Below are positions 906 to 7,972 of a stretch of DNA of 34,735 bases, in pieces (within the stretch, counting starts at the first letter, position 1; each line of letters begins with the position of its first letter). Under the pieces are notes generated by a model. The model was not told the DNA's origin and ran no database searches. It saw only the letters and a program-made list of their open reading frames with translations. Origin of the DNA: an uncultured Bacteroidales bacterium (GTDB lineage Bacteria > Bacteroidota > Bacteroidia > Bacteroidales > P3); assembly GCA_947165345.1 (NCBI GenBank), contig CAMVAA010000008.1, positions 1 to 34,735 of the forward strand, in the 5' to 3' direction. A program made the position numbers and the translations under genes.

Positions 906-2075
906 CTATAGGTTCTTTGTGAAGAACTCCGCCAGCGTGTCCCAAGGAATGTAGTTGCCCGTGCCGCCGTCGTAGAGGTCGCAGTGGGTGGCGCCGGGTA
1001 TGATGAGCAGCTGCTTGTTCCCGGGATTGGGATTTGGCTTGCCCACAAAGCTGTAGCCCTCTGCCCTACCCTCCACCATATAGTGGTAGGCGGCCTCACC
1101 GAAGTAGCGGCTGTGGGCCTTCTCGCCGTGCATCACGAGCACAGCCGAACGTATCTCGTTGATGTAATACAGGAAGCGGCTGTTGCTGTAGGCCTGGGTG
1201 CCGATGGCGCGCCAGCCGTCGTTGCTGTTGCCGCTGCGGGCGTGGTAGCCGCGCGGGGTCTTGTAGTAGGCGTGGTAGTCCTTCACGAACTGCGGCGCGT
1301 CGTCGGGCACGGGGTCCACCACTCCGCCGGCCATCGCCATCGGGTCTGCCAACCGTTGCTTGGCCAAGGCCTCGCGCGCCGCATGGCGGTCGGCCTCGTT
1401 GTCGCCCGCGTCGAAGTAGCCGTTGCCGCCCACGCGAGTCATGTCGTACATCGTGCTCGCCACGGTGGCCTTGATGCGCGGGTCGGCCGCGGCAGCGTTG
1501 AGGGCTATGCCGCCCCAGCCGCAGATGCCTATGATGCCGATGCGCTCCGCATCCACATTCTCCTGCTTCGCCAGATAGTCGACGGCGGCCATAAAGTCCT
1601 CGGTGTTGATGTCTGGCGACGCCGTGCGGCGCGGCTCGCCGCTGCTCTCGCCGGTGTACGAGGGGTCGAAGGCCAGCGCCACAAAGCCGCGCTCCGCCAT
1701 CCGCATGGCGTAGAGGCCGCTGCTCTGCTCCTTGGTGGCCCCGAAGGGACCGCTCACGGCGATAGCCGGATACTTGGAGTCTTCGAGTCCTACAGATGAC
1801 TTGACGTCCTGAAGTCTCGATGTCTCGATGTCTTGAAGTCCCGAAGTCTTGAAGTCTTTAGGAGTATAGAGGTCCGCGGCCAGCGTCAGCCCGTACTGTG
1901 TCTCGAACGTCACCTTGCGGTGGTTCACCTTGTCGCTCAGCGGGAACACCTTGTCCCACTCCTGTGTCAGTTCCATTGTCTTCATATTCATTTCTTCTTT
2001 TTCGTTCGTTGTCTTCTGATTGCATGCCGTCAGCACCGCGCCGAGCAGCATGACTGCCAATAAGTTCTTTTTCAT
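906..2075 (-). CDS. Alpha/beta hydrolase with lipoprotein signal peptide
   Basis: MKKNLLAVMLLGAVLTAC lipobox; GICGWGG nucleophile elbow; C-terminal GATHCDLYD catalytic His region. Confidence 0.85.
   Translation of the reverse strand: MKKNLLAVMLLGAVLTACNQKTTNEKEEMNMKTMELTQEWDKVFPLSDKVNHRKVTFETQYGLTLAADLYTPKDFKTSGLQDIETSRLQDVKSSVGLEDSKYPAIAVSGPFGATKEQSSGLYAMRMAERGFVALAFDPSYTGESSGEPRRTASPDINTEDFMAAVDYLAKQENVDAERIGIIGICGWGGIALNAAAADPRIKATVASTMYDMTRVGGNGYFDAGDNEADRHAAREALAKQRLADPMAMAGGVVDPVPDDAPQFVKDYHAYYKTPRGYHARSGNSNDGWRAIGTQAYSNSRFLYYINEIRSAVLVMHGEKAHSRYFGEAAYHYMVEGRAEGYSFVGKPNPNPGNKQLLIIPGATHCDLYDGGTGNYIPWDTLAEFFTKNL
1804..1859 (+). repeat. Degenerate octamer tandem repeat, consensus AAGTCTCG, inside hydrolase CDS
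   Basis: acgtcctg|aagtctcg|atgtctcg|atgtcttg|aagtcccg|aagtcttg|aagtcttt, seven units in register. Confidence 0.8.
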
Positions 2076-2135: not shown

Positions 2136-3038
2136 TCAGCAGCAGATGCGGGTCTGGCGCAGCTGCTCTTTGCGGGCCGAGGGTATTATCTCTTCGTGGT
2201 AGAAGTAGTTGACCACCACCGGGGGCTCGCCGTGGCGGGCGTGGGTGCTGTCGTCGTTGCGGACATAGCGCAGGCCGCTCTCGGCGCAGTAGTGGCCCAG
2301 GTCGGCATTGAGTTCGTGCCAGTAGGCGCGGTCTTTCTTGGTGTATATGTCGTGGTAGAGGGTGTCCAGCTCTGGATGGTGTTCGTGCACCCACTGCAGT
2401 ATGCGCCCTTTGTAGTCGCCCCGCAGGTTGAGGTTCTCCAGCCACACGAGGTTGCACTGCCCCTTGGCCCGCTCTATGATGGCCTCCACGTCGGTGATGC
2501 CCGGGAAGATGGGCGAGATGAAGCAAGTGGTGTCGATGCCGGCCTCGTAGAACTGGCGCATGGCCTCCAGCCGACGTTCGATACTCACGCCGCGGTCCAT
2601 CTCGCGGCGGAACTCCTCGTCGAGGGTGTTGATGCTCCAGCTGACACGGGCTCCGGGAAAGGTCTTTATCAGGTCTATGTCGCGCAGCACCAGGTCGCTC
2701 TTGGTGGCTATACTGATGCGTATGCCGCTGCCCTGCAGCTGCTCCAGCAGCGCGCGCGTGCGCTTGTACTTGGCCTCGCAGGGCTGGTAGCAGTCCGTCA
2801 CCGAGCCGAGGAAAGCCTCCTTGCCGGCATAGCGCCCCGCGTTCTTGATATCCGGCCATAGCTTCACGTCCACGAAGTCGCCCCACGGCTCGGCGTGGTT
2901 GGTGAAGCGCTTCATGAACGAGGCGTAGCAGTACTTGCAGGCGTGGGCACACCCCACATAGGTGTTGACAGAGAAGTCGCTAACCGGCAGGTTCGACTTG
3001 GTCATCACGCTCTTGACGTCAATCTCTTTTATCGTCAT
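2136..3038 (-). CDS. Radical SAM protein, SPL-like / 'radical SAM mobile pair protein B' type
   Basis: MTIKEIDVKSVMTKSNLPVSDFSVNTYVGCAHACKYCYASFMKRFTNHAEPWGDFVDVK; CxxxCxxC [4Fe-4S] motif. Confidence 0.9.
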   Translation of the reverse strand: MTIKEIDVKSVMTKSNLPVSDFSVNTYVGCAHACKYCYASFMKRFTNHAEPWGDFVDVKLWPDIKNAGRYAGKEAFLGSVTDCYQPCEAKYKRTRALLEQLQGSGIRISIATKSDLVLRDIDLIKTFPGARVSWSINTLDEEFRREMDRGVSIERRLEAMRQFYEAGIDTTCFISPIFPGITDVEAIIERAKGQCNLVWLENLNLRGDYKGRILQWVHEHHPELDTLYHDIYTKKDRAYWHELNADLGHYCAESGLRYVRNDDSTHARHGEPPVVVNYFYHEEIIPSARKEQLRQTRICC

Positions 3039-4457: not shown

Positions 4458-5107
4458 TTATTTCACCACGCTCCTGATCCACTTCTCCACCTTGGCCTTG
4501 CCGCCTCTCACCTTGTGGCCGTACATGCTCCAGCCAGCGGTGACCTTGGCCTTGGGGAAAGCGCGTTTCACGTCGTTCACGCAACTCGCCAGCCCGCTGC
4601 CCTCGTGGGTGGTGAAGGGGATGACCGTCTTGCCGTCGAGGTCAATGTCGCGGAAGAGGGTAAACATCACCTGCGGATAGATGTCGCGACCGAAGGGAGC
4701 AACGTCTTTTAACAGGTGCCCCACCACACAGGACCGCCTATGAAGACGGTGTCGTACTGGCTCAGGTCGGGTGCCTTCCCCTCGTATGGCGGCAGCTCAC
4801 CCGCGTTGGCCTCCTCCTGCGCCAGCTTGATAAGCGCGTTGTAGGCCATCCCGTCATACTTGTGCGTGACTATCTCGTACTGCTCCGCGCCCGTCAGCTC
4901 GCTGATATAGTCGGCCACGATTTTGGTGTTCCCCACCTCGGTGTTGCCCACGCTGTAGTTGTCGCCCGCGTGGGAGAAGAAAATAACGATTGCTTTACTC
5001 ATAGTTGTTCCGGTTTTTGATTGTTTCACATCTTGTTTGCTCTGTCCGTTGCAGCCCGCCGCCATCAGCAGCGCGATTGCCGCCACCAGAATGTTCTTTA
5101 GTTTCAT
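4458..5107 (-). pseudogene. Lipoprotein-signal flavodoxin (Flavodoxin_4-like) disrupted by a 35-bp frameshifting insertion
   Basis: N-terminal part MKLKNILVAAIALLMAAGCNGQ...FIGGPVWWGTC* (ORF 4709..5149) and C-terminal part YPQVMFTLFRDIDLDGKTVIPFTTHEGSG (ORF 4458..4727) lie in different frames. Confidence 0.8.
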
Positions 5108-5152
5108 CTGTCTCTTTGTTTTACGTACAATTATCACACAATCAACCATTAT

Positions 5153-5183
5153 TTCATGGTTAATTCATGCCAATTCGTGTCAA
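5153..5183 (+). repeat. Short degenerate tandem repeat, about 10-bp unit TTCRTGNNAA (3 units)
   Basis: ttcatggttaa|ttcatgccaa|ttcgtgtcaa in the intergenic region upstream of the disrupted flavodoxin. Confidence 0.5.
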
Positions 5184-5265
5184 TAGGTGCTTGCCCCGTA
5201 GGTGGCACCCTATCAGCACTATCCGGAGGCCTACGTCCGCCAGCCGATTCTTAATCAGCGTTTTG

Positions 5266-5793
5266 TCAGTTCATCAGACGACTCTCGCCCCAGCGGTACT
5301 GCGGGTAGGCCTTCTTGAGGTCGTTGGCCGAGCCGGTGACGTTGCTGCCGCCGCTGGTGGCGAAGACATTGAGCACCTTGCCGCTCAGGTCGTGGGCCTC
5401 TATGAAGGTGTTAACGATGGTGGGGGCGGTATACCACCACACCGGGAAGCCTATCCACACGGTGTCGTAGTCGTCCATGTTGGGGCACGTGCCTTTGATG
5501 GCCGGACGCGAACTCTTGTCCTTCATCTCCTTGGTGGACCGGCTCTGCTTGTCGCGCCAGTCGAGGTCGGCGGCGCTGTAGGGCACCTCGGGGGCAATCT
5601 CGAAGAGGTCGGCGTTCAGCTCTTTGGCCAGCCGCTGGGCGGCAGCCTTGGTGGTTCCGGTGGCCGAGAAGTAGGCCACAAGTGTCTTGTTCATATTGTT
5701 TCCTTTCTTTTGTGTGTTGTCGGTCTTGGGGTTCTGCGCGCAGGCGGCCATCATCAGGCAACAGGCGGCAATAATCATCGTGATGCGTTTCAT
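5266..5793 (-). CDS. Flavodoxin with lipoprotein signal peptide
   Basis: MKRITMIIAACCLMMAACAQNPKTDNTQKKGNNMNKTLVAYFSATGTTKAAAQRLAKEL; phosphate loop SATGTT; GFPVWWYTAP. Confidence 0.88.
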   Translation of the reverse strand: MKRITMIIAACCLMMAACAQNPKTDNTQKKGNNMNKTLVAYFSATGTTKAAAQRLAKELNADLFEIAPEVPYSAADLDWRDKQSRSTKEMKDKSSRPAIKGTCPNMDDYDTVWIGFPVWWYTAPTIVNTFIEAHDLSGKVLNVFATSGGSNVTGSANDLKKAYPQYRWGESRLMN

Positions 5794-5828
5794 GTCTCTG
5801 TGGTGTTTGGGGAGTTGTTGCATAAATC

Positions 5829-5868
5829 TAAAACACTGACGCATTGACACACTAACGCACTAACGCAT
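5829..5868 (+). repeat. Degenerate octamer tandem repeat, consensus TAACGCAY (about 5 units)
   Basis: taaaacac|tgacgcat|tgacacac|taacgcac|taacgcat; overlaps the last codons and stop of the CMD-cupin gene. Confidence 0.65.
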
Positions 5869-6985
5869 TGTACTGTTCGTCGTCGACAGGCTCGAGCCAC
5901 TCGTTGCGGAAGCCGGGCTGTTGGGCGGTGAAGTAGGCCAGGTGCTGCATCCAGCTGTCGGCGGCGGCACCGTGCCAGTGCTTGGTGCCGGCGGGGACGC
6001 TGACCACCGTGCCGGGCGTCAGCTCCACGGGTTCCTTGCCCCACTCCTGGTACCACCCGCGGCCGCTGACACAGACCAGCACCTGCACGGCTTTGTGGTG
6101 TATGTGCCAGTTGTTGCGGCAGCAGGGCTCGAAGGTTACGTTGCAGAGACCGCTCACCGTGTCGAGCACCGCCAGGTAGCTCTGCCCTATGAAGTATTTG
6201 GCGTAGGCGTCGTTGGGCTGTCCCAGCGGATAGGCCGAAGGCGACACCGTCCGCTGCTGTCCCTTCACGGCGGCTATGGCCGCCTCGCAACGCAACGCCT
6301 CAGCCTCCAGTCCGGCGGCTTTCAGCGCCTCGGGGATGGCCGCCAGCTGCGCCTCGCTGACGCCCATATTCAGCGCTCCGCGCACATGGGCCTGCAGCTG
6401 CGGCATCACGCCCTCCAACCCGCTCAGCGCGCTGACGGTCACCAGCTCCCTGTCGGCATGGGTCAGCACGTCGCGGGCGAAGATGTCGCCGAAGAGGTGC
6501 GCTTTGAGGTAGTAGTCCTCGGCCGGGCAGAAGTCATAGTTGAACGGCTGGCCGCTGAGCTTGGTCTGCACCTCGGTCCCCTGCTTCAGGGCGTCGTAGC
6601 CCGCGGGCATCGGCGACGCCTCGGGGCCAAGTTCGTAGGGCTCACCGTTGTCGTCAAACTCCTTCAGCACCTTCTGCAGCGTACCCAACGCATTGAGTGA
6701 ACGGGGGAAACCCATGTAGGCATAGAGCTGCGACAGGGCCTCCTTGATTTGGTTGGCGGTGAGGCCGGTACGCAAGCCGTTGCGTATGGCCACACCGAGC
6801 TTTGACTGGTCGCCGCGTGCCGCATTGCATGCTATCTCGGACATGTAAGTGGCCTGCAGTTCATCGAAACTGAGTGTGTACATTTCTTTATTTGTATCGT
6901 TGTTTGTATTGTTCGACTTGCTGCCGCAGGCGACCATCGCCAGGGCCATCACAGCCGCCACAAGCGGCATCAGTATTCGTTTCAT
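5852..6985 (-). CDS. Carboxymuconolactone decarboxylase-like (AhpD fold) plus cupin fusion with lipoprotein signal
   Basis: MKRILMPLVAAVMALAMVACGSKSNN; tandem CMD-like segments; C-terminal cupin CNVTFEPCCRNNWHIHHKAVQVLVCVSGRGWYQEWGKEPVELTPGTVVSVPAGTKHWHGA. Confidence 0.88.
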   Translation of the reverse strand: MKRILMPLVAAVMALAMVACGSKSNNTNNDTNKEMYTLSFDELQATYMSEIACNAARGDQSKLGVAIRNGLRTGLTANQIKEALSQLYAYMGFPRSLNALGTLQKVLKEFDDNGEPYELGPEASPMPAGYDALKQGTEVQTKLSGQPFNYDFCPAEDYYLKAHLFGDIFARDVLTHADRELVTVSALSGLEGVMPQLQAHVRGALNMGVSEAQLAAIPEALKAAGLEAEALRCEAAIAAVKGQQRTVSPSAYPLGQPNDAYAKYFIGQSYLAVLDTVSGLCNVTFEPCCRNNWHIHHKAVQVLVCVSGRGWYQEWGKEPVELTPGTVVSVPAGTKHWHGAAADSWMQHLAYFTAQQPGFRNEWLEPVDDEQYNALVR

Positions 6986-7080: not shown

Positions 7081-7159
7081 TACAGAATGCCGCTCGTTGT
7101 GCACAAAATGCCTTCCGCCCGATGCAATAACAACGTTAGTTCCGCGTTATCAAACTACT

Positions 7160-7972
7160 ATGAGTACTCTAAGCGAAGACATCATCATCTCCACAAGCCT
7201 CGACCAGACGGCCGCCATGCAGCAGCAGGGCTACATCACCCACGCACTCTGCCGCGAGGGCAGCTGCACCTTCCGCCTCGGGGCCCGTGAGCACCGCCTC
7301 GTCACCGGCGACTGCCTCATCATCCCGCAGCAGTCGCTCCTGCTGCACGACTACGCGCCGAGCGACGACTTCCGCATCGAGGTCATCTACGTCTCCGCCA
7401 CCTTCACCGAAGTCGCCTCCCCGCAGAGCAACTACGGCATGCGGGGCCACCTCGCGCTCTTCGAGAACCCGGTGATGCACCTCACCGCAGCCCAACAAGA
7501 GGTCTGCGAGCTCAACTTCGACTACATACGCCGACGCCTCGCCCTGCCGCAGCACAACTTCCACCGCGACGCAATGCTCAACGCGGTGCAGTGCATGATA
7601 ATCGACTTCTTCGACTTCCACGTGGAACTCTACGGCGAGCGGCACGTCACCAATCAGCAGGCTCTGCTGATGCGGCAGTTCATGTCGCTGCTCGACCGAG
7701 GCGAGTACGTGCAGCACCGCGACGTGGCCCACTACGCCGACGCGCTGTGCGTCACACCAAAGTATCTCAGCGAGGTGTGCCGCGAAGTGAGCGGACAGTC
7801 GGCCATGTACTGGATCACCCGCTACACCGCCCTCAACATCAGCCGCACCCTCCGCAACCGCGCCCTCACCATCGACGAGATATCCGATTACTACGGATTC
7901 TCCTCAACCAACTACTTCGTCCGCTACGTGCAGAAGAACCTCGGCGCTTCGCCAAGCGCCCTGAGGGAATAA
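7160..7972 (+). CDS. AraC-family transcriptional regulator
   Basis: C-terminal HTH: HYADALCVTPKYLSEVCREVSGQSAMYWITRYTALNISRTLRNRALTIDEISDYYGFSSTNYFVRYVQKNLGASPSALRE. Confidence 0.92.
   Translation: MSTLSEDIIISTSLDQTAAMQQQGYITHALCREGSCTFRLGAREHRLVTGDCLIIPQQSLLLHDYAPSDDFRIEVIYVSATFTEVASPQSNYGMRGHLALFENPVMHLTAAQQEVCELNFDYIRRRLALPQHNFHRDAMLNAVQCMIIDFFDFHVELYGERHVTNQQALLMRQFMSLLDRGEYVQHRDVAHYADALCVTPKYLSEVCREVSGQSAMYWITRYTALNISRTLRNRALTIDEISDYYGFSSTNYFVRYVQKNLGASPSALRE

Follow-up and report, generated by a model that had tools for sequence, protein, structure and literature searches.

Conserved, start-like internal ATGs in a Bacteroidales enzyme cluster suggest paired exported and cytosolic products

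Four minus-strand genes in a 34,735-nucleotide stretch of DNA from an uncultured Bacteroidales bacterium (the window) encode a CMD-cupin protein, two flavodoxins (FLV1 and FLV2) and an alpha/beta (dienelactone-type) hydrolase. We found that all four begin with a lipobox-bearing signal peptide, followed by a polar linker of 12–16 residues, a methionine and then a cytosolic-type enzyme. The best explanation, and in our judgement a probable one, is that in-frame internal initiation at this methionine has been maintained, giving an exported and a cytosolic form of each enzyme. According to this proposal, the upstream ATG would open a Sec signal, mostly with a lipobox, and its product would be exported, usually lipid-anchored through a short polar tether and probably facing the periplasm. 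Some 33 codons further downstream, in A-rich, weakly structured linker DNA, the internal ATG would yield the enzyme without signal or tether; this short form would be cytosolic and would begin where cytosolic relatives begin. The linker DNA would have a double role, encoding the tether and providing the site where ribosomes bind to make the short form. The anatomy of the genes, the conservation of the methionine against a fast-changing linker and the selection for start-like nucleotides are established at the level of sequence comparison, and from them we infer that both products are made, are located as proposed and are enzymatically active. Flavodoxins need FMN and a reductant, which are normally cytosolic, so a cytosolic flavodoxin form is expected to be active.

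Table 1. Features of the cluster, with positions counted from the first nucleotide of the window
Feature	Position	Strand	Evidence
CMD-cupin, long form (signal peptide, linker, CMD/Cupin_2 enzyme)	5852..6985	-	ORF; PF02627 1.4e-15, PF07883 1.4e-8
Candidate internal start codon, CMD-cupin (short form MYTLSFDEL...)	6881..6883	-	Met in 12/12 relatives; A/T signature
FLV2, long form (MKRITM...)	5266..5793	-	PF12682 1e-61; NF005501 218.9 bits, cut-off 198
Candidate internal start codon, FLV2 (short form MNKTLVAYFS...), preceded by AAAGGAAACAAT	5692..5694	-	92/94 near relatives; SD-like 5-mer 47/87
FLV1, split by 35-bp insertion at ~4692–4728	4458..5107	-	ORFs 4709–5149 and 4458–4727; PF12682 on both halves
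Candidate internal start codon, FLV1 (short form MSKAIVIFF...)	5000..5002	-	16/16 correctly anchored relatives
Hydrolase (HYD), long form	906..2075	-	PF01738 1.9e-8; same N-terminal layout
Candidate internal start codon, hydrolase (short form MKTMELTQEWDK...)	1983..1985	-	Met in 19/19 relatives
Second candidate internal ATG, hydrolase	1989–1991	-	
AraC-family regulator, divergent	7097..7972	+	PF12833 2.3e-15, PF02311 3.1e-5

On the minus strand the gene order is CMD-cupin, FLV2, FLV1, an acetyltransferase, an FMN reductase, a radical SAM protein and the hydrolase, and the AraC-family regulator, judged by its position, is likely to control the cluster. The shared layout had been described in an initial annotation of this DNA, and the N-termini were exactly as quoted there: lipobox and linker are LTAC and NQKTTNEKEEMN in the hydrolase, AAGC and 16 residues in FLV1, MAAC and 15 residues in FLV2, and MVAC and 14 residues in the CMD-cupin protein. 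That annotation assigned the set to positions 5107–6985; the hydrolase belongs to it as stated, but lies outside that interval. Signal peptides, called by pattern or rule in all homologue counts, were predicted in 142 of 146 homologues, most of them with a lipobox. The earlier idea of a membrane-anchored periplasmic module is therefore plausible for the long form, but the lipid anchor is not universal, as the signal of 15 homologues carries an ordinary signal peptidase I site. The lipobox state also changed 18 times on the FLV2 tree. As predicted from these signals, which are of the lipoprotein or the plain Sec type, the conserved feature is export plus the methionine and not the lipid. Surface-exposed lipoproteins of Bacteroidetes carry acidic residues right after the lipid-bearing Cys (the LES signal, PMC5080379). 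The residues following Cys in the window genes are NQKT, NGQS, AQNP and GSKS, none of them acidic, and the LES motif (K-(D/E)2, Q-A-(D/E)2 or SDDDD) was absent after Cys in all four, suggesting that the long form is more likely to face the periplasm.

We collected FLV2 homologues from same-genus genomes, 80 loci of (mostly rumen) Bacteroidales metagenome-assembled genomes (MAGs) and 393 genomes of the order, and the hydrolase and CMD-cupin were each searched in 295 genomes. The junction methionine was kept in 139 of 141 near relatives (counts per family in Table 1), compared with 6 methionines among 1,675 linker residues, so its retention, as first remarked from the window, goes beyond chance. 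Both exceptions are in FLV2, where L095 has lost the methionine and the lineage L015/L098 carries it a few positions further upstream; a supposed methionine-less FLV1, L105, proved to be a mis-anchored partial hit and was rejected. Linker sequences vary with hardly any restriction, and linker lengths span 5–49 residues. Across a tree built from 123 FLV2 domains, the methionine state changed 6 times, against 45–64 changes for each of the eight preceding residues. The spacing between methionine and domain is not constant among relatives, shifting by one to several residues (MKKTLV/MKTLV; MKQELQLTQ, MTRIELTQ, NMELQLTQ), indicating that the methionine is no fixed structural residue. In the structure model, residues 8–32 had very low confidence and strand 1 began at residue 37, with the methionine at the edge of the fold. 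The junction methionine is missing from about half of the FLV2 proteins outside the near relatives, from Prevotella-like hydrolases and from the directly secreted CMD type. Linkers routinely lacking it, which had been named beforehand as an observation that would contradict the idea, were thus not found among near relatives, but many homologues from other parts of the order have them.

The surroundings of the internal ATG look like a Bacteroidales start site in nucleotide sequence, being A-rich, with a purine at −3, a synonymous shift towards A/T and weak predicted RNA structure. In the upstream 20 nt, internal ATGs had a proportion of A of 0.59, compared with 0.48 for true starts and 0.23 for other in-frame ATGs, and a purine occupied −3 in 95%, 86% and 80%, respectively. 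Initiation in Bacteroidetes relies on weak structure and A at −3 and not on Shine–Dalgarno (SD) pairing (PMC6847099), and the context of the internal ATGs agrees with this. Synonymous third positions were A/T-shifted from about codon −9 to +5, that is, into the enzyme domain (0.87 against 0.38 expected at codon −6; 0.61–0.67 against 0.30–0.35 at codons +3 to +5), and fell below expectation at codons +8 to +10 and +12 to +15. Expected values were derived from the codon usage of the individual locus, which controls for amino-acid composition. In the four families, RNA at the internal ATG was 1.8–2.3 kcal/mol less structured than synonymous recodings, compared with about 0 in control lipoproteins, and structure was stronger 12 and 20 codons downstream. 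The A/T signature was present in each of the four window genes. Its synonymous excess was +0.49 upstream and +0.15 downstream for the CMD-cupin gene and +0.41 and +0.21 for the hydrolase gene, with A at 0.65 in both (for CMD-cupin, in −20 to −1). Of the four, FLV1 showed the most pronounced start signature (MFE 0.0 versus a synonymous mean of −5.8); its synonymous excess lies mainly upstream of the ATG and reaches only 0.05–0.07 inside the domain, which we counted against the proposal.

For 57 representatives with dissimilar linkers, the A/T excess at codons −8 to +5 was 0.26, versus 0.04 in 64 other lipoproteins (p=1e-8). These other lipoproteins had an excess of about +0.28 at their real starts and 0.01–0.10 in ordinary linkers. 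As related sequences inflate the raw z-scores and Fisher tests, this reduced-set test and the tree counts are more reliable. Secreted homologues without the methionine (FLV2 of other families, the directly secreted CMD type and Prevotella-like hydrolases) had no such excess inside the domain, the values in three families being 0.02, −0.05 and 0.05, compared with 0.22–0.32 when the methionine was present. Collectively, methionines at varying spacing, start-like synonymous DNA and the absence of both from methionine-less secreted homologues give good comparative support to dual products from alternative starts, one of two options left by the initial annotation. Could the internal ATG instead be the sole real start, preceded by an untranslated leader that merely resembles a signal? 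Copies without a signal exist, and in A content the internal context equals or exceeds the upstream one; a non-coding leader, however, would not keep an in-frame hydrophobic signal open in nearly all homologues, most with a lipobox, and the upstream starts have a start-like context of their own (A at −3 in 68%), making this explanation extremely improbable.

Two related genomes (1.2 Mb, 1,001 genes, 159 signal-bearing) were surveyed on 20-kb stretches, and six methionine positions passed the combined criterion: three lay in hydrolase and FLV2 genes, and the other three had no polar lipoprotein linker. This survey and the 64 control lipoproteins led us to reject a general lipoprotein property. 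An internal promoter producing a short mRNA was also rejected: the Bacteroides −7 element TANNTTTG was found upstream in 4/146 genes, and three of these copies precede the signal start. Aldo-keto reductase (AKR) lipoproteins encoded near FLV2 (L036:2082, L057:3880, L075:1786, L098:8835, L045, L046, L048 and L049) have a lipobox, a polar linker and a junction methionine in 8/8 cases, with no clear synonymous signature, so that retention of the methionine alone is no proof. DUF362 lipoproteins adjoining FLV2 (L058:9050, L059:9040, L066, L070:2224 and L067:6869) mostly have no junction methionine, and many of their linkers are GC-richer; a few lineages have the methionine in an A-rich context, and in L067 AAAGGAG lies 5′ of a methionine.

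The internal ATGs might also be fossil starts, left when signals were fused upstream of cytosolic genes, in which case the old start and its A-rich leader would be functionless and only the exported form would be made. The behaviour of the AKR lipoproteins fits this history, as do the resemblance of the linker to a translated A-rich 5′ leader and the fact that cytosolic relatives begin at the equivalent residue. However, linkers and 4-fold sites have turned over almost to saturation while the methionine and the A/T synonymous pattern stayed, and since ATG has no synonymous codon its loss would be expected as fast as that of its neighbours. Silent sites near saturation (FLV2 4-fold sites, 0.56 observed and 0.50 expected) exclude the fossil of a recent fusion, and on the same basis the start-like pattern appears to be maintained now, as a passive relic would have decayed; we consider fossil starts unlikely. 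Selection on the exported protein alone offers a different account, with the methionine acting as an N-cap or spacer and A-rich codons favouring slow or unstructured translation during Sec targeting. Although the linkers are polar and A-rich through their amino-acid composition, and the methionine does sit at the edge of the fold, a spacer role fits poorly with the variable distance to the domain. Such a methionine and such linker DNA are, moreover, mostly lacking from the 64 other lipoproteins and the neighbouring DUF362 lipoproteins, and the synonymous excess enters the enzyme domain only where the methionine is present. This account seems to us highly doubtful.

FLV2 differs from the other families in carrying SD-like 5-mers (AAGGA/AGGAG-like, −18 to −5) at 47 of 87 internal ATGs, versus 1/93 at its upstream start, 3/132 at true starts and 3/181 at other in-frame ATGs. 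As a general mechanism SD pairing was rejected for FLV1, CMD-cupin and the hydrolase (0/43). The same core DNA arises in FLV2 from Lys-Glu (AAGGAG) and Gln-Glu (CAGGAG) pairs, and Glu codons at −4 were GAG by 37:3, as opposed to 8:31 at −1. With about 20 gains and losses on the tree, and following in part from the Lys-Glu codons, the motif is only suggestive. In Bacteroidia the ribosome keeps its anti-SD sequestered except when bS21 is lacking, and SD sequences are largely ignored (PMC9976891), which makes the function of AAGGAG uncertain. A bolder reading, in which tandem starts double a whole detoxification or redox set across two compartments from one copy of each gene and the FLV2 AAGGAG is read preferentially by bS21-less ribosomes, whose anti-SD is free, the ribosome state setting the exported-to-cytosolic ratio, appears quite unlikely.

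Homologues starting exactly at the internal methionine, which had been suggested as a check, were found. At L103:9995 a signal-less FLV2 begins at the junction methionine, its enzyme is 88% identical, and its start overlaps the stop of the upstream ORF as ATGA; in L090 the signal ends in a nonsense codon, and the FLV2 enzyme is intact and open from the junction methionine, and L067 has an FLV1 without a signal, all three being MAG sequences in which assembly errors are possible. The L103 genome also has a signal-bearing FLV1. Furthermore, NF005501, a model of the cytosolic family, and 3KLB, a structure with bound FMN, both start at the equivalent of the junction methionine. FLV2 shares fold and family with the Flavodoxin_4/NF005501 flavodoxins (3KLB, the B. 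fragilis FMN complex, 4ICI and 4J8P; TM 0.82 on the target and 56% identity to 3KLB). These structures were solved as soluble flavoproteins, and 3KLB and NF005501, unlike FLV2, have no signal or tether.

Single genes with comparable starts have been described. HBP35 of Porphyromonas gingivalis gives an exported full-length product, and internal in-frame methionines, shown to be starts with M-to-A mutants, give shorter, probably cytosolic forms (PMC2907840). It is likewise a Bacteroidales gene whose internal in-frame starts change product location, but it is a single protein whose short forms lack the thioredoxin domain and function differently, whereas in the window the whole enzyme is kept, the start lies exactly at the border of tether and enzyme, and four unrelated families in one cluster are involved. 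PilB of Neisseria, as cited in PMC2907840, also has two in-frame starts in one ORF. Salmonella N-terminal proteoform pairs arise from two in-frame starts of one ORF, and in some pairs the signal peptide, and with it the predicted location, is not the same (PMC11005335); those are scattered single genes found by profiling, whereas the window set rests on conservation and synonymous-site selection in an SD-poor phylum. Eukaryotic dual targeting by alternative start codons, as in plant ATP sulfurylase (PMC4283515), works on a similar principle, one gene giving a targeted as well as a cytosolic enzyme through start choice, with eukaryotic start selection and organelle targeting in place of a bacterial export signal. 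We found no described gene set of dual starts, nor these lipoprotein flavodoxin and CMD clusters, in the openly licensed literature; the precedents are single genes. If both forms are made, a short A-rich segment would let an SD-poor bacterium place each enzyme on both membrane faces from one gene, the oddity of lipoprotein signals on flavodoxins and hydrolases would be resolved, and automatic annotation, with one start per gene, would miss half of the products. The methionine together with the synonymous A/T signature constitutes a purely comparative dual-start test usable on any genome collection.

The 35-bp insertion in FLV1 introduces a frameshift and a TAA stop and is absent from seven aligned homologues, indicating a broken gene or a misassembly; in this genome the frameshift would truncate the long form as well as the short one. 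PF12682 matched FLV1 in two pieces (26.6 and 39.6), with NF005501 at 35.9, below its cut-off; FLV2 scored above the cut-offs of both models (PF12682, 207 bits against 24). AhpD-like alkylhydroperoxidases have a defining CXXC redox motif in the CMD domain. This motif was absent from the 377-residue CMD-cupin protein, although its CMD family match is itself good, and an AhpD peroxidase was rejected. The description of the cluster as a redox module suits the two flavodoxins; for neither the hydrolase nor the CMD-cupin protein is it proven, and the AhpD-like activity is unsupported.

The radical SAM protein (2136–3038) matched TIGR04470, 'radical SAM mobile pair protein B' (427 versus a cut-off of 410), and no partner A was noticed beside it. 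FLV2, the hydrolase and CMD-cupin are 70–89% identical in other families of the order (G117 and G221 in family f81; G137 and G237 in f101; L130–L136, L160–L166 and L190–L193), which is as high as within the genus and suggests horizontal transfer of the cluster.
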